This document shows positions 49,747 to 62,235 of a stretch of DNA of 64,000 bases, in pieces. The translations under genes were made by a program, and so were the position numbers. Position 1 is the first letter of the stretch. Each line of letters begins with the position of its first letter. Source of the DNA: Methylocystis sp. IM3 (GTDB lineage Bacteria; Pseudomonadota; Alphaproteobacteria; Rhizobiales; Beijerinckiaceae). The notes below the pieces were generated by a model. That model did not search any database, was not told where the DNA came from, and saw only the letters and a list, made by a program, of their open reading frames with translations. The stretch spans positions 1,810,001-1,874,000 of the forward strand of contig NZ_JBBPBZ010000002.1 in assembly GCF_038070105.1 (NCBI RefSeq). Reading direction: 5' to 3'.

Positions 49747-50181
49747 TCACCGCCGGCTTCGGCGTAAAAAAGGCGCTGCCGGCGCTGTGCAGGAACCGTC
49801 TGGAGTCATCACGATGTCTGCTTGCGGAGCATACTGGTTCATTGCGCCAGTGGCGGCGTCCACCCCGAGTCCAATGACTCCGCCGACGACCACATTTCCC
49901 GCCGTCATCCCGTCCATGTTCGATGCAAGGACGCCGGTTCCATCGCTGTAGCATTCCTTGCTGCATCGGATGGAGACAGCGCTTGAGCCCTTGGCGAGGG
50001 TGACGACGCCGGGCGTCGTCACCGTCTGCGTGCCGATGGATGGGGAAATAAGCGTGCATACGGCGCCGGGTGCGCCGGGTGTGTTGATGGCCACTGTTTG
50101 AGTTGTTCCGCGCGTCATGGTCGCGCAGCCCGCCATTGCCGTTGAAGTGACGAGGCCAAAGCAGAGCGCAAGCTTATTCAT
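49747..50181 (-). CDS. Lipoprotein, hypothetical (144 aa)
   Basis: Lipobox TAMAGC places the lipidated Cys at residue 19. The mature domain (VAINTPGAPGAVCTLISPSI then VVTLAKGSSAVSIRCSKECY) resembles PEGA-like or carboxypeptidase-regulatory beta domains, followed by a hydrophobic glycine-zipper-like segment NVVVGGVIGLGVDAATG. aaggaatt precedes ATG 50,181. Probably outer-membrane associated. Confidence 0.75.
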   Translation of the reverse strand: MNKLALCFGLVTSTAMAGCATMTRGTTQTVAINTPGAPGAVCTLISPSIGTQTVTTPGVVTLAKGSSAVSIRCSKECYSDGTGVLASNMDGMTAGNVVVGGVIGLGVDAATGAMNQYAPQADIVMTPDGSCTAPAAPFLRRSRR

Positions 50182-50355: not shown

Positions 50356-50640
50356 TCAGTCTGCATCCGGAGACTCCGTTTTGGTTGTGAATGATTGCAA
50401 AAAGGCGAAGCCCTCCGCGTTGAGACCGTGCGGAAATCGCGTCGTCATCAGATAGGCGGCGCGGACGCGCGCTTGCTCTATTGTTTCGGGCGGAAATGAG
50501 AGAAGCGCCATCATGGCGAGGCGCTCGGCCTCGAAAGCGTCGTACTCTTTTGTCGTGCCGGGATTCTCCTTACATGCGTAGCGGAAGGCCCGAACCGCGA
50601 GCATGTGATCCGCGATAGCCTCAATAAGTGTGTTGCTCAT
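50356..50640 (-). CDS. Hypothetical protein (94 aa)
   Basis: Soluble helical protein beginning MSNTLIEAIADHMLAVRAFR. Its start overlaps the 3' end of the upstream gene by 20 bp, so both are likely in one operon. No recognised family. Confidence 0.6.
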   Translation of the reverse strand: MSNTLIEAIADHMLAVRAFRYACKENPGTTKEYDAFEAERLAMMALLSFPPETIEQARVRAAYLMTTRFPHGLNAEGFAFLQSFTTKTESPDAD

Positions 50641-51286
50641 GTGGCAGTTTTCGCTTTTGAAAATCCTGCGCGACTCCCGGAAAATGCAGTTCGATCGGAC
50701 CCCTCGCCGAGATCATGATCGGCCCTTCCCCAATGGGTCGCCCGTGTAGCAGGACGATCCCGACGCGGTCGGAGACAACCATCATGGCTGTCGGCGCGGC
50801 GCTCGCCTCGGAGATCGTTTCGCCAGCCGACGGATCGAGAACGTGTGATATTTTCGTCGGCAATTTCAGACGCGGCTCTGCGCCGGAAATCGACAGAGGC
50901 ACAGCCAGTTCGGCTGTAATTTGGGCTTCCTCCTGTGCGGGGAAGGCAGGGAATGTGATGACATGAAGCCCTTGACGTGGTTTCGCGAGGCTCGCATGCG
51001 CGTTGTCCTGGCCGGGCGCTGGCGCGCAATCCAGGATGCATTTTCCCACCCGGACAGTGAGGCGCCGGATAATTGCGTTGGGAGGCGACAGAATTGGAAC
51101 CGCGGCCTTGATGGGCATAGGTTCGACGCTGCGGAAAAAACGCGTAACAGTCACCGTTACAGCGGCTTGATGCGTCGAACACAGTTCGATGCACGTGGCT
51201 GTCGCCAGATCCACAACGGACCCATCCGGGCACAGTCCGATGGCTCCATCGCGCAGTTCGCGGAGCGGATATTCGAATGGTCTCAT
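50621..51286 (-). CDS. Hypothetical protein (221 aa)
   Basis: Starts at ATG 51,286 (MRPFEYPLRELRDGAIGLCP). Likely beta-rich, no signal peptide. Overlaps the downstream 94-aa gene by 20 bp. Possibly a conserved two-gene unit of accessory DNA; the family is not recognised. Confidence 0.6.
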   Translation of the reverse strand: MRPFEYPLRELRDGAIGLCPDGSVVDLATATCIELCSTHQAAVTVTVTRFFRSVEPMPIKAAVPILSPPNAIIRRLTVRVGKCILDCAPAPGQDNAHASLAKPRQGLHVITFPAFPAQEEAQITAELAVPLSISGAEPRLKLPTKISHVLDPSAGETISEASAAPTAMMVVSDRVGIVLLHGRPIGEGPIMISARGPIELHFPGVAQDFQKRKLPHEQHTY

Positions 51287-51675
51287 CGTCGTTCTCGGGT
51301 TGCTTGGAATAAAAAGGGGATGTGAGTGACCCGCCTGGGGTCGCATAAGCGCGGAGGCGGAGATGCGCCGCGTAGATTGCTGCGCCGCCTGGCGAAGCTG
51401 GCTGGCTGTTCCGGCCTTTACAGGCGCCGTCGGCCGAAGCAGACGGCAATCGCTTTATGGGAGGGTTTCCGCTGAGGTCGTCGCGTTCTCATGCCACGCG
51501 TGGCGCAATGATGATGCCGGGCCGCCATCGGCGGACCCGCTCGGTGGCTAATTGCATGCAAATATATGAATCAAAATCTAAAAATGCCTTCAGCGCCGCA
51601 AGCCGCGCCGTGACGAGGGCGCTCAAAAACACGAGATATCTTGTGCTAACATAAACAATCTTATACGCATTCGAG
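51287..51675. other. Promoter/intergenic region of the CARF-sigma54 regulator
   Basis: Gap of 389 bp between divergent genes. The part nearest the regulator (51,550-51,670) is AT-rich and includes ttgcatgcaa and a near-palindrome at 51,630. No coding sequence convincing; a 62-residue ORF at 51,363 looks spurious. Confidence 0.5.
51630..51645. promoter_or_regulatory. 16-bp near-palindrome before CARF-sigma54 gene
   Basis: cacgagatatcttgtg has one mismatched pair, 30 bp upstream of the start codon. Position suits autoregulation by the downstream Fis-type HTH protein or binding by another regulator. Confidence 0.4.
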
Positions 51676-53223
51676 ATGCGTATCCTGGTCTCATGGCTCG
51701 GCGCCGCCGATCTGAAGTCGCCCGAGGCCGAGGACAAGACCGACATTGGTCCGGTCGCCTCGACGCTTGCGGCGCGCGAATTCGACCGTGTGCTGCTGAT
51801 CGCCGATCAGGACCAAAAGCGCGTCCGGAAATATGAGGGCTGGCTGCGGGCGCGGCTCGGCGCCAAGAAGCGCGTTGACCTCTCGATCGCGCGCGTCGAG
51901 CTCTCAAGCCCGACGAATTTCGAAGAGATCTACTCGGCGGTCACGCACAACGTCGATCAAGAGCTGCGGGCTCTCCCGGAGCGGCCGCAGCTTTGCTTCA
52001 ATCTGAGCTCCGGCACGCCGGCCATGGCGGCGACGTGGGTCATTCTCGGCAAAACCAAGTATCGAGCCGAGCTATTGCAGGCCTCGCGTCAGAAGGGCGT
52101 CGAGACGGCCTCGGTTCCGTTCGATATTTCGCTCTCTCCCGAATTTGTGACGGACGCGCTGCGTCTTCCGGATCGCCGGCTTGAACAGGCGAGCGCGGGC
52201 GCCGTGGAGGCGGGGGTCAGATTCGGCGACATCATCTACCGCGGGCTGGCGATGCAGCGGCTGATCGCGCGGGCGATGAAGGCCGCGCCGCGCTCTGTGC
52301 CGATCCTCATCGAGGGCGAGTCGGGCACGGGCAAGGAGCTGCTCGCCCGCGCCATTCATCGAGCGAGCGCGCGGCGGCGCAAGGCGTTTCAGGTGGTGAA
52401 CTGCGGCGCCATTCCGGGCGAGCTCCTGGAGTCGGAGCTCTTCGGCCATGTGAAGGGCGCCTTCACGGGCGCGATCCGGGATCGCGTCGGCCATTTCGAA
52501 TCGGCGCATGGCGGCACGCTGTTTCTGGACGAGATCGGCGAGTTGCCGCTCTCCGCGCAAGTGAAGCTGCTGCGCGCGATACAGGAGGGCGAAATCCGCC
52601 GCGTGGGCGACGACAGGACGCTCCAGGTCGATGTGCGCATCATCGCCGCCACCAATCGCGAGCTTGCGGCCGAGGTCGCTGGCGGGCGATTTCGCGAAGA
52701 TTTGTTCTACCGGCTCGCCGTCCTTGTCCTGCGCATGCCGCCGCTGCGGGAGAGGGAAGGGGACCTCGAGCCCCTTATCGACGGCCTGCTCGCGCGGATT
52801 AACCAGCAGAGCGCGCAGGAGCCCGGTTTCACGCCGAGAAGCATCTCGGCGGAGGCGAAGAAACAGCTGATGCGCCAGACCTGGCCCGGTAACGTCCGCG
52901 AGCTGGAGAACACGCTACGCCGCGCGGTCGTGTGGTGCGACGGTGAGACCATCGACGCCGCCGATGTCGCCGATGCGCTGCTCCCGCGCGCGACGCCCCG
53001 CGGCGACGCCGTGCTGAACCGCGCGCTGGAGCCCGGCGTCGATCTGCCGGAGCTGCTGGCCGATGTCGCGCGGCACTATCTCACCCGCGCCATGGCGGCC
53101 GCGCAGGGCAACAAGACCCGCGCCGCAGCCATGCTCAGCCTGCCGAGTTATCAGACCCTCGCGAATTGGCTGGAGAAGTATGGCGTCGGCGGCATGGGCG
53201 CGGGTCCGGATGCGCGGCCGTGA
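51676..53223 (+). CDS. Sigma54-dependent regulator with N-terminal CARF-like (RtcR-type) domain
   Basis: Three-domain regulator of 515 aa. Residues 1-175 resemble the CARF domain of RtcR (MRILVSWLGAADL, SSPTNFEEIYS, and the ligand-loop-like CFNLSSGTPAMAATW at 107-121). The AAA+ domain has Walker A GESGTGKE (214-221), the sigma54-contacting GAFTGA (261-266), Walker B GGTLFLDEIGELP and the R-finger region. A Fis-type HTH ends it (AAAQGNKTRAAAML). CARF domains bind cyclic oligoadenylates or RNA end-derived ligands, so this should switch on sigma54 transcription on such a signal. rtcBA is not adjacent; a truncated hsdM is. ATG start with no other candidate. Confidence 0.88.
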   Translation: MRILVSWLGAADLKSPEAEDKTDIGPVASTLAAREFDRVLLIADQDQKRVRKYEGWLRARLGAKKRVDLSIARVELSSPTNFEEIYSAVTHNVDQELRALPERPQLCFNLSSGTPAMAATWVILGKTKYRAELLQASRQKGVETASVPFDISLSPEFVTDALRLPDRRLEQASAGAVEAGVRFGDIIYRGLAMQRLIARAMKAAPRSVPILIEGESGTGKELLARAIHRASARRRKAFQVVNCGAIPGELLESELFGHVKGAFTGAIRDRVGHFESAHGGTLFLDEIGELPLSAQVKLLRAIQEGEIRRVGDDRTLQVDVRIIAATNRELAAEVAGGRFREDLFYRLAVLVLRMPPLREREGDLEPLIDGLLARINQQSAQEPGFTPRSISAEAKKQLMRQTWPGNVRELENTLRRAVVWCDGETIDAADVADALLPRATPRGDAVLNRALEPGVDLPELLADVARHYLTRAMAAAQGNKTRAAAMLSLPSYQTLANWLEKYGVGGMGAGPDARP

Positions 53224-53266
53224 ACCCGCTTGCCGGTCGTCAGCGATGGCTTTACCCATAGTGCGC

Positions 53267-53284
53267 CGAAGCCCCCGGGCTTCG
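53267..53284. other. Hairpin between regulator and hsdM remnant
   Basis: cgaagccc and gggcttcg form an 8-bp inverted repeat with two central bases. Either a weak terminator of the regulator gene or an operator before hsdM. No sigma54 -24/-12 element of canonical spacing is seen in the 97-bp gap. Confidence 0.4.
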
Positions 53285-53320
53285 ATTTGGCTTCTTTGAT
53301 CAGGGAATTGCGCCAACCCC

Positions 53321-53554
53321 ATGCTCACCGGCGAAATCCGCAATCAGGTCGACAAGATATGGGACGCCTTCTGGTCCGGCGGCGTCTCCAATCCGCTCTC
53401 TGTCATCGAGCAGATCACCTACCTCCTGTTCATCCAGCAGCTGGAAGAAATACGGCTTGTGGTAGAAACCTCGACCATCCATGTCTGGAGCCCGCACTTC
53501 GCGGCGAGTTCACCCAGTAGGTTGCCAAGGCATGGATATGGGACGCGCCAGTGA
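53321..53554 (+). pseudogene. Truncated type I restriction-modification methylase HsdM N-terminus
   Basis: The first 43 codons read MLTGEIRNQVDKIWDAFWSG, followed by VSNPLSVIEQITYLLFIQQLEE, which is the conserved start of HsdM proteins. After base 53,449 the similarity ends in unrelated sequence and the frame stops at 53,554. No SAM motif or NPPF domain remains, so it cannot be active. It is the first gene downstream of the CARF-sigma54 regulator. Confidence 0.8.
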
Positions 53555-53725
53555 GCGCTATTCGGACGGTCGTATTCATTCTTGCGTGAGCGGGATAAGG
53601 GATTCCCAAAAGATTTACGGGCTAAGCGCGCCGCCAGCAGCTCGGTGTTTGAGCGCTCCGCGGCCCGAACGGTTGCGGCACCGAAGCCGCCTTGCGCCTT
53701 CCACACGTCAAATCGGAACTAGGGG

Positions 53726-53983
53726 CTAATGGCGGCGCTTCCGGAGCTCAGAAGGACAATTGTTCGGCGGGCAAAAGCCGGGATTGCACAGGCCTTGGCT
53801 CTCCCACGCCGCTCCATTACACCAATATTTTGTGCAAGTTCCCCAATGGTTACATTCGGTTTTGCAAGTTGCTCCTCGCGGGCTACAGGCAAGCGCTTCT
53901 CCTCCCAGCAACATCAAACTATAGCCAATTAATGCGACCAAGGCTGAATGCCGAGCGAACGCTGTCAAGCGTAGGTTTCGCAT
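53726..53983 (-). CDS. Exported cysteine-rich small protein (85 aa)
   Basis: Signal peptide (residues 1-32, ...GGEALA|CS) and a 53-residue mature peptide with eight cysteines at 33, 40, 44, 50, 55, 66, 71 and 76, rich in Asn, Trp and Gly (KTECNHWGTCTKYWCNG). This spacing suggests four disulfides, as in defensin-like or small toxin/antimicrobial folds. A ggggaatt stretch precedes ATG 53,983. No family recognised; lies in decayed accessory DNA. Confidence 0.55.
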   Translation of the reverse strand: MRNLRLTAFARHSALVALIGYSLMLLGGEALACSPRGATCKTECNHWGTCTKYWCNGAAWESQGLCNPGFCPPNNCPSELRKRRH

Positions 53984-54237
53984 CACCAATTCCCCTCATG
54001 TATCCGGCAAGCACGATAATTTCGCTTTGAAGCGCCGCATACGGGCGTAATGCGGTGCCTAGCAAAATTCGCAAAACCCACTAACGGTTCCGCCTGTTAT
54101 CCGTGTGCGTTTCTTGAAATGGTCGGTGTGCAAAACTTTAGAGTTTTGCAAGCACACGTCGAGCCCTTGAAAATCAGGGTCTTGGCGTATGCAAAAGTTT
54201 ATTGCGAAAGTTTCGGCTTTCCGGCACGCTGCCAGCG
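53984..54237. other. Intergenic region, nothing recognised
   Basis: AT-richer stretch between the Cys-rich gene and the resolvase remnant. Contains a short imperfect repeat around gtgcaaaactttagagttttgcaagcac, which folds as a hairpin (54,128-54,155: caaaact and agttttg arms). No ORF with coding character. Confidence 0.45.
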
Positions 54238-54385
54238 TGATTTTCGGCTACGCCCGCGTTTCGACCGACGGCCAGAGCGTTGGCGCTCAGATTGCGGCTT
54301 TGTCTCACGCCGCATCAGCGCGGTGAGGCCTTGCGTGACTTTGCCAAGGGCAAGGCGACGCAGGCCGCCCTTGCGCGGCGGCGCG
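54238..54385 (+). pseudogene. Serine recombinase (resolvase) remnant 1
   Basis: From GTG 54,238 the frame reads VIFGYARVSTDGQSVGAQIA, the catalytic N-terminus of resolvases with the nucleophile Ser in YARVSTDGQ, and stops after about 29 codons. In another frame just downstream FAKGKATQAALARR matches the C-terminal HTH part. The middle of the gene is deleted, so it is a decayed pseudogene. Confidence 0.75.
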
Positions 54386-54439
54386 GAGCATGTTTCGAGG
54401 CTCGTGCCATGAGCAATACAGCGAAGATGTGGGGCGACC

Positions 54440-54928
54440 ATGTCAACTGAAATGGGAGAATATCTCGTCGGAGCTTACTTAAAACTGGTGCTAAAATGCA
54501 GCGTCGTTGATTACAACGCGCGCCCACCGGGTGGCGGCCTTCAAGGTCTGGGGGAGCTCGATGTCATCGGGTTCGATCTCCTTAACCGGAACGCATACCT
54601 CTGCGAGGTGACGACTCACTTGGATGGGTTGCTCATAGGCAAAGGCACCGACGCCACCATAAAGAAACTTTCGGATAAGCATCGTCGTCAGCAAGAGTAT
54701 GCCGCGAGGTTTTTGAATGGTTTCACACCGCGCTTTATGTTCTGGTCTCCGATTGTGAGAACTGGTCTTGTGGAGCAGCTCAAAACTCTCACTGGCTTCG
54801 AACTCTTCATCAACCATGGCTATAGCAACGCGATCAAGCAGTTACGCGAATTGGCGAGAACCTCCACAGCAGACGCTAACAATCCAGCATTTCGGGTTCT
54901 GCAAATTCTGGAGCACACGCGGCGCTGA
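54440..54928 (+). CDS. Hypothetical protein with PD-(D/E)XK-like nuclease motif (162 aa)
   Basis: Soluble protein of 162 aa. An N-terminal helix with Glu7 precedes GELDVIGFDLLNRNAYLCEV, where Asp41 and Glu56-Val-Thr58 line up as the D and (D/E)-x-(K) positions of PD-(D/E)XK nucleases; the usual Lys is Thr. Homologues of this sort often occur in defence islands. ATG at 54,440 with gggg upstream; second ATG 12 bp on. Lower GC than core genes. Nuclease activity is inference. Confidence 0.5.
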   Translation: MSTEMGEYLVGAYLKLVLKCSVVDYNARPPGGGLQGLGELDVIGFDLLNRNAYLCEVTTHLDGLLIGKGTDATIKKLSDKHRRQQEYAARFLNGFTPRFMFWSPIVRTGLVEQLKTLTGFELFINHGYSNAIKQLRELARTSTADANNPAFRVLQILEHTRR

Positions 54929-55018
54929 TGCTCAGACGCTAGCCCGGCCGGAGGGGGCGACGCTTTGGGCGTCATAACGAACTCGGGGGCGTTCAAGGTG
55001 CGTAAGGCGTTTGAGAGC

Positions 55019-55040
55019 GGTGCCCCCCTGGCCGGAGTCG
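55019..55040. other. Degenerate copy of tRNA-Leu 3' end (candidate att site)
   Basis: ggtgcccc, then two additional C, then the stretch tggccggagtcg, matches the 3' end of the tRNA-Leu gene at 62,151 (ggtgcccctggccggagtcg) apart from the inserted bases. Direct repeats of a tRNA 3' end define island ends for P4-type integrases. This would be the distal att of a 7.1-kb island ending at the tRNA. Confidence 0.55.
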
Positions 55041-55175
55041 CCACCTGTTGATTTTGCTTTCGTTTCTGGTGCGCCTACATAAAAATTACAAATTTCGGTA
55101 TGGCGAGCATTCGTCCGATATCGCCAGCACGGTTGTGCCTCCGCTTGTGGCAGGCGCCGATTGAATCGAGTGAGA

Positions 55176-55376
55176 CTAATCCACCTCAGCCTCTATCCTT
55201 TGAGTCTTTCGCGTGGGCTCGGGACGCTGGAGATCGAAATTGTCCTGGCTCAGCTCTCGGCTTGGAATTTTTTTTTCTGCAATAAGAGCCGCGAATGTTT
55301 GATGAACTTCCGCTACTTCCTTTTGGCTGAGCACACGAACAGCCGGTTTTTCATACGGAGATTTGAATTTTTGCAT
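55176..55376 (-). CDS. Possible small charged protein (66 aa)
   Basis: Begins MQKFKSPYEKPAVRVLSQKE with gagga 8 nt upstream. Charged, helical, protein-like composition, no family. The opposite strand also has an ORF (55,161), which looks less protein-like. A start at 55,433 would add 19 residues. Confidence 0.35.
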   Translation of the reverse strand: MQKFKSPYEKPAVRVLSQKEVAEVHQTFAALIAEKKIPSRELSQDNFDLQRPEPTRKTQRIEAEVD

Positions 55377-55526
55377 TCTAAAATCCTCACTCGCTACTTC
55401 CCGCCGGCTGATAAAACAATGTTTAATATCCATTGTTTAGCTAGCTGTGGAAACTACGTAACCGCTGAAGAGTCTGCAGTGTGGCGAATGGCTGGCTTTA
55501 ACTGAGGCGCAGCGCGCGGCACCTCG

Positions 55527-55690
55527 CTAGTTTCCGATCAAGCCAAACAGCATTGCGGAAATCAACCTCAGCTCGTTGTAAGTGCTGTTCGCAGATGCAA
55601 TGAGCAGGCCCAAGATCAGTGCGACCATGGTGCCAATCAGCCCGTTTACAAGCTTAATAACGTCCCGGCCGCAGCGGCCTGGGTGACCAG
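55527..55690 (-). pseudogene. Fragment of a DUF4239/bestrophin-like membrane protein
   Basis: No start codon is present, and translation gives VNGLIGTMVALILGLLIASA then NSTYNELRLISAMLFGLIGN followed by a stop. It resembles the first membrane segment of DUF4239 proteins (which typically read GTMAALVLGLLxASAK). Only this piece remains, next to the 3' end of the two-TM gene, so it is a truncated relic. Confidence 0.4.
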
Positions 55691-55699
55691 AAGTTGGAT

Positions 55700-56248
55700 T
55701 TACACCGGCCCACTATTGTGAGGTTTTAGGGCACTTTCTGCGTCCCGTATGTAAATTGCAATTCGATCTCGTTCGCCTTCTGAATCATGGATGATCTGTG
55801 CCGCGATAATCGCCTTATCCGACGATGGATCACGCGCACGCCAACGATTCACAATTCTCATTGAGAGTATCCTTAAGTCATGAACCGCGCGCACATGGAC
55901 ATTTCTAAGCAGTCCTCTTGGATTAATACTATCAACAGAGACGCAGCCACTTGCGATTGCGCTTAATACCATTGTTGGTATTTCTTGGTGAAAATAAGCC
56001 AATAACGCAGCAAGCGCGGACGAAATTATTGCTGGTATTTTTAGAAACCAAAACGCTAAAGCATCTCTTTTAGCATCTTTTTCGTTTCCTGCAGCCCACT
56101 CCTCAAGTTCACTAAGGAGGTCTGCTAGATTATCTGGCATGTCACTCGGTCGGGCTTGCGGTTGCTTTCCGAACGGCCACCACCAATGTGGACCTGCCTG
56201 ACGTGGAGGTGGAGCTGCACGTGGAGGTGGGGCTGCGACAATGCTCAT
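55700..56248 (-). CDS. Two-TM protein, SLATT-like candidate effector (182 aa)
   Basis: A Pro-rich N-terminus (APPPRAAPPPRQAG) is followed by a helical segment (LADLLSELEEWAA), two membrane helices (about residues 68-85 FWFLKIPAIISSALAALLAY and 91-107 TMVLSAIASGCVSV), then a charged cytosolic helical region with VHDLRILSMRIVNRW. This layout resembles SLATT effector domains of CBASS-type systems, which form membrane pores. ATG 56,248 has ggag 8 nt upstream; the frame runs to 56,521. No synthase partner is identified nearby. Confidence 0.5.
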   Translation of the reverse strand: MSIVAAPPPRAAPPPRQAGPHWWWPFGKQPQARPSDMPDNLADLLSELEEWAAGNEKDAKRDALAFWFLKIPAIISSALAALLAYFHQEIPTMVLSAIASGCVSVDSINPRGLLRNVHVRAVHDLRILSMRIVNRWRARDPSSDKAIIAAQIIHDSEGERDRIAIYIRDAESALKPHNSGPV

Positions 56249-56513
56249 CCATGCGACTCCAGATGGTGCTAATATACTCACCATTATCCACGATTTTTGC
56301 ACCCGGCAAGGCGGATTGCTTGTGCACAAGTCAAAGCTTTTGAGACGGGCGCAAGGAGAAAGGGCCGCCCAGAGCGGTCTCTGTGTTTTAGAGAATTGAG
56401 CGTTATGGGATTGGCACGTGTGAATCATTGGGTGCCGGATTCGCGCAGCTCGTGCGCGAAAAAAGCGTTGTGAGCGAGCGCCGCGCTCGCTCGCAGCAAG
56501 GAGGCGAGGGCGC

Positions 56514-57452
56514 GTGAGCACTGTTCAGAAAAATCAGCATTATGTCTGGCGCTACCACCTTGAGGCGTGGGCTACAGGGGGGAAGCTCTTTTGCTATCGC
56601 TGCCGGGCTAAGAATTTGTTTGAAACGATAGCAAAATCAGTTGCGAGCGAAAAATATTTCTATGAAACGTTTGAGTTGTCCCCGGTAGATGTTGATTATC
56701 TCAAAGGGCTGATTGGCAAAGCTTCTCATAAGGGACTTCAGGATATCAACCGGCGCTTTGTGCAGCTATTTCAGTTAAGTTTCCTTATGCGTGAACGTAT
56801 CAAAAATTCAGCCATCTCCGAGCAAGAGAACGAAAAACTATGTGAGCAGCTCAGAGTTATCGAGAAGACCGTAGGGGAATCATATCACGCAAATATCGAA
56901 AGGAATGCTCAGCATATACTAGATTCGCTTAGGAGAGGCGACGACAGCTTTTACTCAGATTCTTCTCAATGCTCAGTTTTTATGTATTTTTTGACAAACC
57001 AATATTTCCGCACGCCTAGAATGCGCGCCCTGTTCGAGAGCATTCCGAACCCACTTCCTGGCCTCGATTTGGTCAGGACGGGTGTCGTCGAGTGCCACAT
57101 TTATGCGGCAAATGTCGGAGCAGGTCTTTTCCTAGAAAGGAATAATTATGGAATCATCTTTTTGGTGAATAACGGGCGCGTCCCATTCATAACGGGGGAT
57201 CAGCCTGTGATCAATATGAAAACTCACAAGGATACGGATGTTGAGTTATTTTATCCTTTGTCTCCGAAGCGAGCAATGTTGTTGACGAAGGATGCAAGCA
57301 AGTTGTCACCTAAAGAACGTAATGTCAGTGTTCTTGAGGTTGAAAACTACAATTACGCCATCTATTCCGCGTGTTATGATCAGGTATATTCGAATGATCG
57401 CTCCTACTTGGGAGAAATCACCTCGCTAAAAAAGGGCATATTCACGGCGTGA
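56514..57452 (+). CDS. DUF4238 domain protein (312 aa)
   Basis: The N-terminus KNQHYVWRYHLEAWA matches the DUF4238 signature (PKNQHYVPxFYL), a family of unknown function often found near defence genes. Soluble, with CYRCRAKN near residue 27 and FITGDQPVINMK in the C-terminal half. GTG 56,514 has an aggagg site. It is divergent from the two-TM gene with a shared upstream region, and AT-rich compared with core genes. Confidence 0.75.
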   Translation: MSTVQKNQHYVWRYHLEAWATGGKLFCYRCRAKNLFETIAKSVASEKYFYETFELSPVDVDYLKGLIGKASHKGLQDINRRFVQLFQLSFLMRERIKNSAISEQENEKLCEQLRVIEKTVGESYHANIERNAQHILDSLRRGDDSFYSDSSQCSVFMYFLTNQYFRTPRMRALFESIPNPLPGLDLVRTGVVECHIYAANVGAGLFLERNNYGIIFLVNNGRVPFITGDQPVINMKTHKDTDVELFYPLSPKRAMLLTKDASKLSPKERNVSVLEVENYNYAIYSACYDQVYSNDRSYLGEITSLKKGIFTA

Positions 57453-57545
57453 TGCGGCTGTTGCGCTATGATTACCATGTTCGCTCTCTCAGCGAGCCGA
57501 TCGCGTGGGGCCGTGGTGCATAAATCAACATTTCCGCAACGCGGG

Positions 57546-57562
57546 TTGCTCGAAAAATCGCA
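57546..57562. repeat. 17-bp direct repeat, left copy
   Basis: ttgctcgaaaaatcgca, identical to the copy at 58,486. The right copy is part of the resolvase C-terminal remnant, so this copy is a duplicated snippet left of the trypsin-like gene. Confidence 0.8.
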
Positions 57563-57597
57563 CCCGTTTGAGAAATGCGCGAGGAGCATTGAGCAGC

Positions 57598-58473
57598 ATG
57601 AACAGCATGAACAGCATGGACGAACAAAGACCTGAAAGCCTACCACGCCGGCAAACGGACCCCGCTTGGCTGCAAGACCATTTTCTGGAGACAGGGCACG
57701 ACGAAACTACAAGAAGCGCAACCTTTACCTTTATCAAACGACGCAACAGGCATTATGCCGTCACCTGCCGACATGTAATGGAAGCGATTTCAGACCCAAA
57801 GATGGTGCCGGGGGCAAGGTTCCCAACCATCGCCATTCACATAGATAGGGCTGTGCTGAACTTGTCCTATTTTACTGCGAAGGGACTGTCGCTGGGCGTG
57901 GGTGCGCCACACGCAGAGACCAAGCGCGAAGAAATTGACGTTGCTATAGCGCCGATAGACGGCAGTTATTGGGGGCTGCTGACCAGCAAGAAAAACAAGA
58001 TGGCGATCGACCTCGATAACTGGCGTGAACCGAAGTGGGATGCCGTCAAATATTGCCTCGCTGCGGGGTACCCTGACGAGAAAAAAACAAAGGTAACCAC
58101 TGGCGGAGCAGAAAAGGTCAGTAGCCAACTCTTTGTCGTTGTCGCCGAGGTAAGCTCACGGCTTGCACGGTCGGAGCGGCAAATTACGCTGTCGAGCCTT
58201 CTCGACAAGGCGCACGGCTATTATTTCAGCGGAATGAGCGGCGGCCCCGTATATGCTGTGGAGGGACATGCAGAGCGCCAAGTTGAAGATGAAGAACTCT
58301 TTCCTGTGGGAATTATTTTCGAAGGTCATCCTAGCAGCGGGAGGGCAGACATGGAGGGCAGCAAAGACGGTGCTAGCGTATTCCTGACCGAGCGAGACCT
58401 GTTCTTTCGGGCGCTTACGTTGACGCCAGAGTTGTTCGACGAGTGGCTGCAAAAGGCAGGAGTCCCTGCATAG
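57598..58473 (+). CDS. Trypsin-like serine protease, cytosolic (291 aa)
   Basis: Chymotrypsin-fold protease without signal peptide or membrane helix. The triad is His59 (VTCRHVME), Asp114 (EIDVAIAPID) and Ser214 in GMSGGPVY, all in normal order. Intracellular trypsin-like proteases in accessory DNA are often effectors or sensors of antiphage systems. A tandem agcatgaac repeat provides three possible ATG starts (57,598, 57,607, 57,616). It is enclosed by 17-bp direct repeats. The region is AT-rich. Confidence 0.78.
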   Translation: MNSMNSMDEQRPESLPRRQTDPAWLQDHFLETGHDETTRSATFTFIKRRNRHYAVTCRHVMEAISDPKMVPGARFPTIAIHIDRAVLNLSYFTAKGLSLGVGAPHAETKREEIDVAIAPIDGSYWGLLTSKKNKMAIDLDNWREPKWDAVKYCLAAGYPDEKKTKVTTGGAEKVSSQLFVVVAEVSSRLARSERQITLSSLLDKAHGYYFSGMSGGPVYAVEGHAERQVEDEELFPVGIIFEGHPSSGRADMEGSKDGASVFLTERDLFFRALTLTPELFDEWLQKAGVPA

Positions 58474-58482
58474 TGACAGCTC

Positions 58483-58718
58483 GCTTTGCTCGAAAAATCG
58501 CAACCTTCGCCGAGTTCGAGCGCGAGCTAATGCGCGCCGGCATTGGCGAGGGGCGCAGCCGCGCCAAGGCGCGGGGCGTTCACATGGGGCGACCTCCTGC
58601 CCTCACCCGCCACCAGCGCGAGGAGGCGTTTGCGGCGCTCGCCGAAGGCAGCGCGACGCAAGCCGACCTCGCGCGGCGGTTTAATGTCAGCAGGAGCACG
58701 ATTTCGAGGTTTCCTTGA
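58483..58718 (+). pseudogene. Resolvase remnant 2, C-terminal part
   Basis: Translation gives FARKIATFAEFERELMRAG, then GEGRSRAKARGVHMGRPPAL and the HTH QADLARRFNVSRSTISRF, which is the second half of a serine resolvase. The catalytic N-terminus is missing at this site. It carries the right copy of the 17-bp repeat. Confidence 0.78.
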
Positions 58719-58882
58719 ACCGCGCCGAGGTCGCCGAGCGCCGCGCCCTCGCTGCCGAGCGCCTCGCGGCGGAAGCGGCCGGCGACGACGCCTTCGCCGA
58801 GGAATTGATCCGGACTAATTTGGCGGTGTCCAAACAGCTCGACGCACTGCGCGCCGAGCTCGCGGCGATGAAAGGGAGGTAA
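58715..58882 (+). CDS. Small helical protein after the resolvase remnant (55 aa)
   Basis: TTG start overlaps the resolvase stop (TTGA), preceded by gagg. Product begins MNRAEVAERRALAAERLAAE and is Ala/Glu-rich helical, ending AELAAMKGR. Small ORFs directly after resolvase genes are common on mobile elements; the role is unknown. Confidence 0.45.
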   Translation: MNRAEVAERRALAAERLAAEAAGDDAFAEELIRTNLAVSKQLDALRAELAAMKGR

Positions 58883-58911
58883 GCCGATGGCTGGCAGTCA
58901 CCATGCGCGAA

Positions 58912-60000
58912 TTACTTGACGACGCGCAGGCCCTTCGGATGGTTCGGTTTTGTCCCTGGCAAGTCAGCTATGTCGTATAGGTCAAGGAGCTCGGCCTCAG
59001 TGATGGTCAATATCTTGGCCAGATCGGCGATTGTGTAGCCAAGGCTCTCAACATGGATGCGGAGAAGACTCGCCACGATGGCCGGCTGCTCGGCAAGAAA
59101 GTCTAACTCCGGCGGTTCGGAAATGCGGATGCCAGCCATCGAAAATTGCTGCCAAAGATAATTCTTCTGCGACGTCGTCAGCTTGCCCGCTCGGTCGGCG
59201 GCAAACACCAGGCTCGCCATTGAAACCTTCCAAATGCGTTTCAGCGCGGCAAGCTTCGGCAGGTCCACGCGACCGGGCCCGAAATGCGGTGCAACGTCCT
59301 TGGTTGGCACCAAAAAGCAACTTGCGAACTCATTCGCCTCCTGCTCCATCGCCGGCGTCGGGAACTGGTGCATGACGATATGCGCCAATTCGTGGCTCAA
59401 GGTGAAGCGCATCCGATCAGCCGGTTGGTCGTTGTTGAGCACGATCAGCGGCGGCAGGCCAGGAACGCGGAAAGTTACTCCTGAGATCGACGACCCCCCC
59501 ATGCGCGAATGCACAATGACGACGCCAGCCTCCTCCAGAATCTGGGTCAGATTTTGAATGGGCCCGGCCGGCAGCATCCAGTGGGCACGCAACAGCGCGG
59601 CGATCTTGGCCGGGCTGCCGTACTGCTCGATGTCAAGCTTAGGGATTGTGCGGATCGGATTTAGGTCGGTTGAGTGCAGCAAGCGGCGAAGGTGCATGAC
59701 GCGTACGTTTAGCTCCGCGATCACAGCATCCATCTCGCCAGCGGTCACATCGGCCTTCTTGCGCCACATAGGGTGAACGGAAACCGGTGCGCCGTAGATA
59801 CGATCGGTCAATGCGAAGAATTCGACGGGCACCGCGAATTCGCTGGCGGCCTTCGCGAGAAGGTCAGCCGGCGGCTCCTTGGCGTCGTTCTCAATGCGGG
59901 ACAGATCAGTGGGGGAGACGCCTAGCTTCTTGGCCGCCTCGTTCTGGCGAACACCTCTTCTCTGCCTCGCGAGTCGCAGCATCGCTCCAGTGAATGACAT
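58912..60000 (-). CDS. XRE-HTH / ImmA-IrrE metallopeptidase
   Basis: Protein of 362 aa with an N-terminal XRE HTH (LRLARQRRGVRQNEAAKKLG, then DLSRIENDAKEP) and an ImmA/IrrE zinc-protease domain with HELAH at 203-207 and a downstream EANEFAS supplying the third ligand. Such proteins cleave repressors or antitoxins and often derepress mobile elements. The stop of the upstream gene lies 3 bp before its start, so they form a two-gene operon. Confidence 0.88.
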   Translation of the reverse strand: MSFTGAMLRLARQRRGVRQNEAAKKLGVSPTDLSRIENDAKEPPADLLAKAASEFAVPVEFFALTDRIYGAPVSVHPMWRKKADVTAGEMDAVIAELNVRVMHLRRLLHSTDLNPIRTIPKLDIEQYGSPAKIAALLRAHWMLPAGPIQNLTQILEEAGVVIVHSRMGGSSISGVTFRVPGLPPLIVLNNDQPADRMRFTLSHELAHIVMHQFPTPAMEQEANEFASCFLVPTKDVAPHFGPGRVDLPKLAALKRIWKVSMASLVFAADRAGKLTTSQKNYLWQQFSMAGIRISEPPELDFLAEQPAIVASLLRIHVESLGYTIADLAKILTITEAELLDLYDIADLPGTKPNHPKGLRVVK

Positions 60001-60003
60001 TTA

Positions 60004-60597
60004 CTACTCTTCGCCCTCGTTCTCTGCGGTCTTCGGCTTTGGCTTGATCGTGATTAGCCCCTGCGCTGGAGCGGCCGGGCCGATCGGCAGGTCGAGCGGC
60101 AGCGCTGCGATGTCGGGTTCGTTGCCAATCGTATAGGCCCATAGGCGGCGCTTTCCGTCACGGGCACTCACTTCGACGCGATCCAATTTGGTCTGGAATC
60201 GGTTCGGGTACCAAAGTAACTCGACTTTCCAGATCGGCGAAACGCCGAGCAGGTTGACCTCAGCGTCGATGAAGTCATGGTTGGCTTGGGTGTCGATGTT
60301 GCTACCGAGCCCTTTTCTTGTGCCGCGCTTAAAGCGGAAAAGCAGCTTGTCCTCGACCAGATAGCGGACGCTCTTGTCGTGGGGGATGCGGCGTATGCCC
60401 GGGAGCTCGTCGAGAACTATGCCAGCCTCCTGCACGATGAAGTCGTGCATCATACTGGACGCGGTGCGCTGGAAGGTCAGCGTCGGCCAAGCGGTGTTTG
60501 ATACCAACCGATCCCACGCCTTCAAGTGCGCGGACATTAACGGCTGCTCATAGCGTTCGAGAAGATGGTACACGTCGTCGGCGGTGGGGTAAGTCAA
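60004..60597 (-). CDS. Hypothetical partner of ImmA/IrrE protein (197 aa)
   Basis: Soluble protein beginning MTYPTADDVYHLLERYEQPL, with mid-region VRYLVEDKLLFRFKRGTRKG and a Pro/Lys-rich tail. It is directly upstream of the XRE-ImmA gene with 3 bp between them. By position it may be a toxin or substrate regulated by the peptidase. Family not recognised. Confidence 0.65.
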   Translation of the reverse strand: MTYPTADDVYHLLERYEQPLMSAHLKAWDRLVSNTAWPTLTFQRTASSMMHDFIVQEAGIVLDELPGIRRIPHDKSVRYLVEDKLLFRFKRGTRKGLGSNIDTQANHDFIDAEVNLLGVSPIWKVELLWYPNRFQTKLDRVEVSARDGKRRLWAYTIGNEPDIAALPLDLPIGPAAPAQGLITIKPKPKTAENEGEE

Positions 60598-60776
60598 GAT
60601 GGCGACTCGCGCTGATTTCGATAATCAGGCCATACACCTTTCTGTTTCGTAAATCGAGCGAAAAAATTTCATAATCGTTGCGATGCCCTGAGTTCCCAGC
60701 CTTTTCAGTATTGTGCCGCCCCGGGGGATCGCTTGCGCGTCGGATGATCGAGGCCGAGGCCGACAACTTAACCCGC

Positions 60777-61955
60777 TTAGGCCGCAATCATTGCCCCGAT
60801 CTCGCGCCCCCACCAATCCATGAGCCGGCGTCGCTCGTCGAAATAATCCGCCCGATGATAGGCACGGCGCACGTCGGACGCGTCGACATGGGCGAGCTGG
60901 CGCTCGATCGCGTCATAGGCCCAGAGCCCCGATTGATTGGCGAGCGTCGAAAACGACGAGCGAAAGCCATGGGCGCTCATTTCGTCCTTGCCGAAGCCCA
61001 TGGCGCGCAGCGCGGCGTTAAAGGCGTTTTCAGAGAGCGCCCGGCCGGCGCGCGGGCCGGGGAGGATAAAGGGAGAGGCCGGCCGCACAGTCCCGTTTTC
61101 TTGGGCCAATCTGTGCAAAATTTGCACAGAAGCCGCCGACAGCGGCGCGCGATGCGGCTGGCGCATTTTCATGCGGCCGGGCGGAAGCGTCCATTCAGCG
61201 CGGTCGAGATCGAATTCCTCCCATTCGGCGAGGCGCAGCTCGCCCGGCCGGGCGGCGGTTAAGGCCAGCAACATGAGCCCGTCGCGCAGGATCGAGGGCT
61301 TGTCGCCGCCATAGCCGGCAATGGCCCGCATCAGCCGTGCGAAGCTGTCGCGCTCGACGAGGGCGGCGCGGCCTTTGGGCTTGGGCGCGATCAGGGCGCC
61401 CTTTAGAAGCGCCGTCGGATCATGCTCGACAAGGCCATGCGCCGCCGCGTAGCGGAAGATGCGCGAAATGGTCGATTTGAGCCGAGCCGCCGTCTCGTGC
61501 TTGCCATAGGCCTCCCACGGCTTGAGCAAAGCGAGAATGGTCGGGGCCTTGATCTCGGCGAGGGGAAGCGGATCGAGCGCGGCCATATTGGAGCAGAGCC
61601 ATTGCGCCTTTTCTTTTGTCGAGGCCGAGGCGTGCGAGCGCTCGACTTGATCGAGCCAGCGCGCCTTCACCTCGCCGAAGGTCTCAGCCGGCGTGGGCGC
61701 TGTCGCCTCGGCCTCGACGGCTTGAAGGATGTTGAGCCGGACGCGATCGGCGGCGATCCGAGCGTCGCGCAAGCTTAATTTTGGATAATGGCCGAGCGTC
61801 TTGCCGATCTCGCGGCCTTTGGCCGAGACATAGAGCCGCCAGGTTTTGAGGCCCTTGGGAGACACCCACAACTGCAGGCCGCGGCCGTCTAAGAGCTTGA
61901 TCGGGCGAGCGGGATCGGGCTTGGCGTTTTTGATCTCCGGATCGGTCAAAGCCAT
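60777..61955 (-). CDS. P4-type tyrosine integrase
   Basis: Site-specific recombinase of 392 aa. An N-terminal DUF4102-like arm-binding domain (LTDPEIKNAKPDP, LQLWVSPKGLKTWRLYV) precedes the SAM-like core and catalytic domain: Arg in LTAARPGELRLAEW, the HxxR segment AHGFRSSFSTLA, and the nucleophile Tyr region DVRRAYHRADYF. Lies 195 bp from tRNA-Leu with its 5' end towards the tRNA, the standard geometry for tRNA-integrating islands. Confidence 0.92.
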   Translation of the reverse strand: MALTDPEIKNAKPDPARPIKLLDGRGLQLWVSPKGLKTWRLYVSAKGREIGKTLGHYPKLSLRDARIAADRVRLNILQAVEAEATAPTPAETFGEVKARWLDQVERSHASASTKEKAQWLCSNMAALDPLPLAEIKAPTILALLKPWEAYGKHETAARLKSTISRIFRYAAAHGLVEHDPTALLKGALIAPKPKGRAALVERDSFARLMRAIAGYGGDKPSILRDGLMLLALTAARPGELRLAEWEEFDLDRAEWTLPPGRMKMRQPHRAPLSAASVQILHRLAQENGTVRPASPFILPGPRAGRALSENAFNAALRAMGFGKDEMSAHGFRSSFSTLANQSGLWAYDAIERQLAHVDASDVRRAYHRADYFDERRRLMDWWGREIGAMIAA

Positions 61956-61962
61956 TTCTGTA

Positions 61963-62006
61963 ATTTCCTGTAAAGCGCGCGCGTTACAGACGACTTTACA
62001 GGAAAT
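61963..62006. promoter_or_regulatory. 13-bp perfect inverted repeat upstream of integrase
   Basis: atttcctgtaaag and ctttacaggaaat are exact complements, separated by 18 bp, 8 bp before the integrase start codon. A partial half-word (tttctgtaat) and gttacag lie inside. Fits an operator controlling integrase or arm-type binding sites. Confidence 0.55.
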
Positions 62007-62020
62007 CCGCGTGGTTAGCC

Positions 62021-62121
62021 ACGGGGAGCGGCGGGGCGCGGCGGGTCTGAGGGGGGCGGAAAACCGGCGAAATGCCTAGAGAAAACGAGGATTTAGCGGG
62101 GAGCTACGGGGAGCGGCGGGG
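62021..62121. repeat. 16-bp direct repeats between integrase and tRNA
   Basis: acggggagcggcgggg occurs at 62,021-62,036 and again at 62,106-62,121, within G-rich DNA. Could be additional integrase or accessory binding sites, or simple GC-rich duplication. Confidence 0.5.
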
Positions 62122-62150
62122 AGGGGCGGGAAGGAGAACAAAAGGGGAAT

Positions 62151-62235
62151 TGGTGCCCCTGGCCGGAGTCGAACCAGCACTCCTTGCGGAACTCGATTTT
62201 GAGTCGAGCGCGTCTACCAATTCCGCCACAGGGGC
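62151..62235 (-). tRNA. tRNA-Leu (CAA)
   Basis: On the minus strand the gene starts GCCCCTG at 62,235 and pairs with CAGGGGC before the discriminator A and an encoded CCA. D-arm GCGGAATTGGTAGACGC and the anticodon stem CTCGA/TCGAG around loop CTCAAAA give anticodon CAA. A long variable arm and T-loop GGTTCGACTCC are typical of leucine tRNAs. The 3' end faces the integrase and doubles as an att site. Confidence 0.95.

Follow-up and report, generated by a model that had tools for sequence, protein, structure and literature searches.

What a CARF-containing sigma54 activator is doing in front of a fragment of a restriction gene is the question raised by a 64,000-nucleotide stretch of the Methylocystis sp. 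IM3 genome (hereafter, the window). The answer that we favour, and consider highly likely, is that the regulator is a leftover of a sigma54-controlled type I restriction locus, of a family most probably working by the mechanism proposed below. The original prediction described an RtcR-like regulator with intact Walker A and GAFTGA motifs, and indeed its frame of 515 codons is open and the motifs are in place:

51676..53223, plus strand: the regulator, a CARF-AAA+-HTH sigma54 activator of 515 aa, RtcR_PspF2 type (PADLOC profile PDLC01995, E 8.9e-192, residues 1-504)
51676..52140, plus strand: CARF domain, residues 1-155 (fold matches span approximately 1-151)
52315..52338, plus strand: Walker A motif GESGTGKE, residues 214-221
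52456..52473, plus strand: sigma54-contact loop GAFTGA, residues 261-266
53056..53181, plus strand: Fis-type HTH_8 domain, residues 461-502 (22.9 bits against a cut-off of 22)

The RtcR_PspF2 profile covers the regulator end to end (profile positions 1-480 of 481), while the PADLOC profiles RtcR_PspF1 (E 7.8e-75) and RtcR (E 3.3e-64) match it more weakly. The protein misses the NCBIfam RtcR equivalog cut-off (357.3 versus 650 bits), and its Pfam RtcR domain score is also under the cut-off (13.8 versus 23.1). Walker A, GAFTGA, Walker B and HTH, the hallmarks of a sigma54 enhancer-binding protein, are all present, and the window's genome has one sigma54 gene. Among the nearest proteins, two belong to Methylocystis sp. 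ATCC 49242, in keeping with a methanotroph of the Methylocystis group. Compared with its relatives, the regulator has dN/dS values of 0.07-0.17, which average over a period including the time before target loss and suggest purifying selection. A second copy, comprising the 3' half of the gene, is found on another contig of the same genome. We regard the window copy as an intact and probably orphaned member of the known RtcR_PspF2 family.

The original prediction was also staked on a CARF-like N-terminus, and structure prediction did return such a fold: the modelled N-terminal part (approximately residues 1-151) matches CARF folds, the closest of which include cA4- and cA6-binding CARF proteins. 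The assignment rests on the structure model, because a search of PDB chains by sequence with the CARF profile gave nothing at E 0.001. Phage records searched with the CARF at 1e-5 gave no match either. A classification of CARF domains was reportedly provided by Makarova et al. in 2020. Given these closest folds, it is tempting to suppose that the regulator senses a cyclic oligoadenylate made by a type III CRISPR system; however, a search of the window's genome gave no Cas10 palm2 match, and we consider such a ligand source improbable.

Downstream of the regulator, the neighbour was predicted to be the beginning of hsdM, cut after 43 codons, rather than the rtcBA pair:

53321..53449, plus strand: hsdM remnant, the first 43 codons (PF12161, E 5.8e-7)

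The Pfam match bears this out. The frame of the remnant runs on to a stop ending at 53554, giving 77 codons in all, and among the loci compared its best match is the HsdM of locus L064 (82% over 34 residues). The remnant is the only link to a restriction-modification (R-M) operon at this locus, which holds no intact set of hsdR, hsdM and hsdS. Genome-wide searches for two families found neither an EcoEI_R_C HsdR nor any HsdM_N beyond the 43-codon fragment, which fits the idea that the regulator survived the loss of its target. No RtcB gene lies next door; the only RtcB matches are located some 0.5 Mb from the regulator on the same contig, in two pieces. These pieces (G000:C2 1360199-1361493, G000 being the window's genome) are in different frames, indicating a broken gene or a sequence error.

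The locus lies in an exchangeable island:

50802..62150: exchangeable island holding the regulator and the hsdM remnant, not common to the stretch from G785, a genome of the same species
62151-62235: tRNA-Leu(CAA), right border of the island, where the match to G785 starts anew

The window matches the G785 stretch up to 50801 and then again from 62151, the first base of the tRNA gene. In G785, the slot opposite (L163 7159-17899, on G785:C59) is occupied by a complete type I Zorya system (ZorABCD) and a type I hsdR. Because G785 holds these genes between the same borders, the regulator locus is one allele of an exchangeable defence site beside tRNA-Leu(CAA). A tyrosine integrase gene (60777-61955) adjoins this tRNA gene in the window. 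A full-length regulator is missing from G785, where the matches are either partial or paralogous. We also observed that a recombinase gene is split in the window (from about 54127, and 58508-58709) by approximately 3.9 kb of extra sequence holding several ORFs, including one for a DUF4238 protein (56514-57452); a Methylocystis plasmid has both pieces of this recombinase gene inside a span of about 650 bp.

To survey relatives, a CARF-only alignment was scanned against a set with a single genome for each species. Of 576 pattern matches, 275 were confirmed as relatives, and the best 80 of these 275 were analysed as loci. The whole family profile matched AAA+ proteins in 61 of 61 genomes, so only full-length matches were counted. 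Neighbouring ORFs were grouped by BLAST, with Pfam and PADLOC run on one representative each of ten clusters. Relatives are spread over many phyla; at E 1e-10, only 2 of the 397 genomes sampled for the order have the CARF, as do 22 of 398 in the phylum sample.

Among the best 80 of 275, the HsdM cluster is present in 44 loci, HsdR of the EcoEI type likewise in 44, and HsdS in 32; HsdM or HsdR occurs in 53 of the 80 stretches and all three subunits together in 29. Thus, the co-occurrence of homologues with hsdM, on which the original prediction depended, is borne out, and the survey that it proposed does recover regulators with all three subunits. The commonest order is regulator-hsdR-hsdM-hsdS on one strand, and in 39 of 72 loci the gene next downstream of the regulator is hsdR. 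Geomonas and Myxococcus loci (L075, L054) are examples with hsdRMS following the regulator.

R-M is not the only cargo. An AAA_15 (OLD-like) ATPase lies near the regulator in 29, and a 314-aa family in 23, of the same best 80 of 275 loci. Members of the latter (L041 10067-11011 and 22 other loci) often follow the AAA_15 ATPase gene downstream of regulators; the representative has no match in Pfam or PADLOC, and the two genes are possibly a defence unit without a name. Close regulators may precede different cargo: those of L072 (R-M) and L083 (AAA_15) share 82.5% identity, and those of L053 (R-M) and L048 (other genes) are 88% identical. Rhodoferax and Polaromonas plasmid loci (L147 and L149) have relatives of the regulator in front of VWA, PP2C, kinase and AAA genes (TerY-P-like) and not R-M.

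Where would such a regulator act? Sigma54 promoters follow the consensus TGGCACG-N4-TTGCW. Our site weights were set from this consensus, with a maximum score of 15.9, and sites scoring at least 13.2 were counted from -21 to +60 of the regulator's stop codon, after eight of the 80 rows had been dropped (five at contig ends, three with broken regulator frames). A site was found at the stop in 56 of the 72 usable loci (from the best 80 of 275) and missed at this threshold in 16. The same search succeeded in 0.78% of 3600 shuffles and, for the other genes of these loci, at 3 of 337 stops; the shuffle rates overstate significance, the threshold having been chosen after viewing the same loci and related loci being non-independent. 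As many as 29 of the 56 sites start exactly at +1 and 44 at +1 to +4, the remainder lying between -18 and +39. By cargo, the site is present in 41 of 47 loci with same-strand R-M among the next three genes, in 6 of 8 with AAA_15 and in 9 of 16 others; it is absent from L039, the only locus with R-M on the opposite strand.

A further 20 matches outside G000 and G010 (a second genome of the window's genus) gave 18 loci, of which 12 remained after removal of four duplicates and two broken frames. The stop-codon site is present in nine of them at 13.2, one of the nine being without its 5' end, and missing in three, all from one distant genus. Seven plasmid records matched, and four of the five plasmid loci examined have the site. 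L135, one of the further loci, and the Azotobacter plasmid locus L146 carry an identical 16-base site, so that they are possibly not independent. By our reading, an in-frame ATG lies about 50 nt past the stop in L040 and L043, so that a short leader would remain. The possibility that the regulator itself is transcribed from a sigma54 promoter was considered and rejected, since scores of at least 13 occur in 6.3% of the 80 loci versus 3.9% at random, that is, with no enrichment.

As a side observation, the regulators of L046 and L041 are 96% and 85% identical to those of L043 and L040, respectively, which precede R-M; both keep the stop-codon site and have no hsdR among the next three ORFs. Because the site is kept there without hsdR, switches that outlive their operon may be common.

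The original prediction proposed a search for sigma54 promoters between the two genes in intact loci. Such sites are indeed found in relatives, at the regulator's stop, but not in the window, where the best score between the regulator and the hsdM remnant is 11.2, not above chance. Among the loci compared, the nearest relatives are two copies in G010 (copy A, L120; copy B, L119; G010:C6 1042081-1057407) and L039 from Hyphomicrobium. Between the G010 copies lie, on one strand, hsdR (its C-terminal part recognised by Pfam, the remainder an open frame), hsdM, hsdS, a GmrSD_N gene and an ASCH gene; the two regulators face each other and bracket these genes. In L039, the R-M genes are tail-to-tail with the regulator, so that the R-M operon of the nearest relatives either meets the regulator tail-to-tail or lies about 3 kb from it. 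Stop-codon scores are low in all of them (10.2 in L039, 10.9 in L120, 11.9 in L119). Because the window and its three nearest relatives are without a good stop-codon site, the commonest architecture does not apply to this clade.

Instead, L039, L119 and L120 each have a divergent sigma54 site scoring 14.2, better than their downstream sites; in L120, an IS4/5-type transposase gene lies between this site and the regulator. The window has the following features on the divergent side:

51504..51519, minus strand: candidate divergent sigma54 promoter CGGCATCATCATTGCG, score 12.5 of 15.9, 156 nt upstream of the regulator
50621..51346, minus strand: divergent ORF of 241 aa without a Pfam match, 36% identical to the ORF divergent from G010 copy B
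50356..50640, minus strand: open reading frame of 94 aa overlapping the end of the 241-aa ORF, with no relative in the regulator loci compared
49747..50181, minus strand: lipoprotein-like ORF of 144 aa, 81% identical to ORFs near both G010 copies

Shuffling the relatives' upstream stretches of 300 nt gives a score as high as that of CGGCATCATCATTGCG in 7.3% of cases; taken alone, the site appears weak and within chance. Across the family, a divergent site of at least 13.0 is found in 26 of 79 loci (of the best 80 of 275) versus 3.2% of shuffles, and such sites cluster near 110, 131 and 147-178 nt upstream of the regulator. Because the clade's R-M genes are tail-to-tail with the regulator or about 3 kb off, and the better site is the divergent one, the surviving target of the window's regulator may be the divergent genes.

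A stronger version of this idea holds that the divergent operon (the 241-aa ORF, the 94-aa ORF and the lipoprotein) is the real surviving target and the hsdM fragment is recombination debris. It would parallel RtcR facing rtcBA in enterobacteria; the 241-aa ORF is shared with G010 copy B and the lipoprotein with both copies, the three nearest relatives have their strong divergent sites (the window's own being weaker), and the hsdM remnant is preceded by no sigma54 site above chance. However, with hsdM near the family in 44 of the best 80 of 275 loci, this neighbour is not a random one; the fragment finds its best match in the HsdM of L064, and in G010 hsdR, hsdM and hsdS sit between the two regulators. 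Moreover, 7 of the 39 genomes belonging to the genus carry the lipoprotein, whereas a full-length regulator is found, among the tested genomes of the genus (G784 lying outside this test), only in G000 and G010, so the two can be independent. No homologue of the 241-aa ORF is seen at G010 copy A. Finally, sites of at least 13.0 number 8, 5 and 5 in the stretches (14 to 20 kb long) of L039, L119 and L120, respectively, and L039 has a 14.2 site (9694) on the other strand as well. On balance, we give the stronger version somewhat less than an even chance and keep to the reading of the locus as the leftover of a restriction locus.

Other genes also face the regulators. A divergent ORF family of about 570 aa (for instance, L057 8170-9855, minus strand), without Pfam or PADLOC match, lies directly upstream of the regulator in seven of seven loci, five of which (L046, L049, L050, L057 and L063) carry a sigma54-like site ahead of this ORF. 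A divergent ARPP-1 (PF20208) gene adjoins the regulator in L118 (8791-9807, minus strand), where the family was tested; this cluster comprises four loci, including L096, and a sigma54-like site is present in L096 and L118.

Directly before the start codon, the window has two palindromes:

51631..51644: distal operator-like palindrome ACGAGATATCTTGT, one mismatch to ACAAG-N4-CTTGT, centre 38 nt before the start
51651..51664: proximal operator-like palindrome ATAAACAATCTTAT, three mismatches, centre 18 nt before the start

In relatives, such palindromes are centred approximately 39 and 19 nt before the start codon, and the window's ACGAGATATCTTGT and ATAAACAATCTTAT, 20 bp apart, occupy the usual places. 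Using a pattern derived from the very loci in which it was counted, we found that 42 of 82 upstream stretches (from 79 of the best 80 of 275 loci, the window and the two G010 copies) contain two palindromes, versus 0.8% of 1640 shuffles; pairs 18-22 bp apart precede 38 of 79 regulators versus 9 of 552 other genes. Of 48 pairs lying 12-30 bp apart, 41 are spaced by 20 or 21 bp. The motif is not universal in the family, because neither the five beta/gamma plasmid loci nor the further loci have a palindrome with up to two mismatches at the two positions expected; a three-mismatch form near -37 to -39 is seen in several further loci. Recurring matches inside the regulator's 3' end, near -342, were rejected as operators, as they fall on one AAA+ coding position and were taken as coding conservation.

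The paired palindromes might also be nothing but the -35 and -10 boxes of the regulator's own sigma70 promoter, with no operator or enhancer role. By our reading, the stacked consensus can be parsed as TTG-N17-TAttnT on the two right half-sites; however, conservation extends to the left half-sites (ACAAG / AtAAG), which would be superfluous in a promoter, and the spacing is nearly fixed. We judge the promoter-only explanation to be rather unlikely and continue to read the palindromes as candidate binding sites of the regulator.

Might the whole locus be inert, with the regulator in early decay after target loss and without any remaining role? The searched R-M families are gone from the genome, no good downstream promoter is present and the divergent site is weak, the same-species strain matches the regulator only in part or through paralogues, and the window's genome holds a 3'-half copy elsewhere. 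Against such decay speak the open 515-codon frame with its motifs, the low dN/dS (averaging, again, over the time before the loss) and both palindromes at their usual places. We find inertness unlikely, if less so than the promoter-only explanation of the palindromes, and prefer to see the window's regulator as a leftover that may still function.

Overall, we suggest the following scenario. The family regulator would sit inactive on two palindromes over its own promoter until its CARF domain is occupied by a ligand, presumably derived from infection or damage, and the AAA+ ring can form. This ring would then remodel the sigma54 polymerase waiting at the promoter by the regulator's stop codon, thereby switching on hsdRMS or another defence operon, and in part of the family it would fire a divergent sigma54 promoter too. 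In the window's genome, the restriction genes were apparently lost inside the tRNA-Leu-linked island, with 43 hsdM codons left behind and the divergent genes as possible remaining targets of the regulator. The ligand-switched sigma54 design of the original prediction is supported by co-occurrence and stop-codon sites in relatives, with the qualification that no such site above chance is seen in the window.

One may go further and see the regulator as a portable induction cassette of about 1.6 kb, with enhancer palindromes at its 5' end and a sigma54 promoter fused to its 3' stop codon. The palindromes over its own promoter would give self-limitation, and a defence module landing behind the regulator (hsdRMS, hsdM with a NACHT-like ATPase, the AAA_15 pair or TerY-P-like genes) would become ligand-inducible at once, with a second, divergent promoter serving an accessory gene. 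We put this forward only tentatively, rating it lower because palindromes with up to two mismatches are not at the expected places in the further loci.

Restriction systems are commonly regarded as always on. If the stop-codon promoters work, a set of defence operons, type I R-M among them, would be switched on by a CARF-sensed signal across many phyla, and each such locus points to its own promoter and palindromes as candidates. The window copy itself adds little beyond showing how a switch can outlive its target.

Finally, we would like to place the regulator among known systems. PspF, likewise a sigma54 AAA+ activator with an HTH, is described in the relevant passage of PMC4012209 as having AAA and HTH domains only. 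RtcR, the activator of rtcBA, shares the CARF-AAA+-HTH order and sigma54 dependence, and its target is divergent, as in part of the family; the window's regulator differs in falling below the Pfam and NCBIfam RtcR cut-offs and in having no adjacent RtcB. RtcR without its CARF is constitutively active in vitro, according to the part of PMC9650030 drawn on here. In complex CoCoNuT loci, as presented in sections of PMC11090510, type I R-M almost always comes directly after CARF genes, so that an RtcR-like CARF gene stands first and type I R-M straight after it in both cases; no CoCoNuT genes were noticed in the window. The argument in those sections relies on operon order and an assumed upstream activating sequence, not on promoter sites. 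The closest counterpart is the family outlined in passages of PMC4012209 (Makarova et al. 2014), namely RtcR-like CARF/NtrC proteins unlinked to Rtc, often found with R-M and considered likely sigma54 activators of downstream genes; RtcR_PspF2 (PDLC01995) is probably this family, judging from those passages. The same domain order over the full length, the link to restriction and the predicted sigma54 activation are shared, while the R-M operon of the window copy appears to have been lost. A CARF-sensed sigma54 switch for R-M is thus an already published hypothesis, as the cited parts of PMC4012209 and PMC11090510 indicate. The passages of PMC4012209 give the family without a stop-codon promoter, paired palindromes or a divergent promoter, and a literature search with little coverage of subscription journals found no paper describing the stop-codon promoter or the palindromes in its title or abstract. 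Our survey makes the 2014 hypothesis concrete by locating conserved promoters and palindromes, the conserved putative sigma54 promoter at the stop codon being the cis-architecture that it would add.
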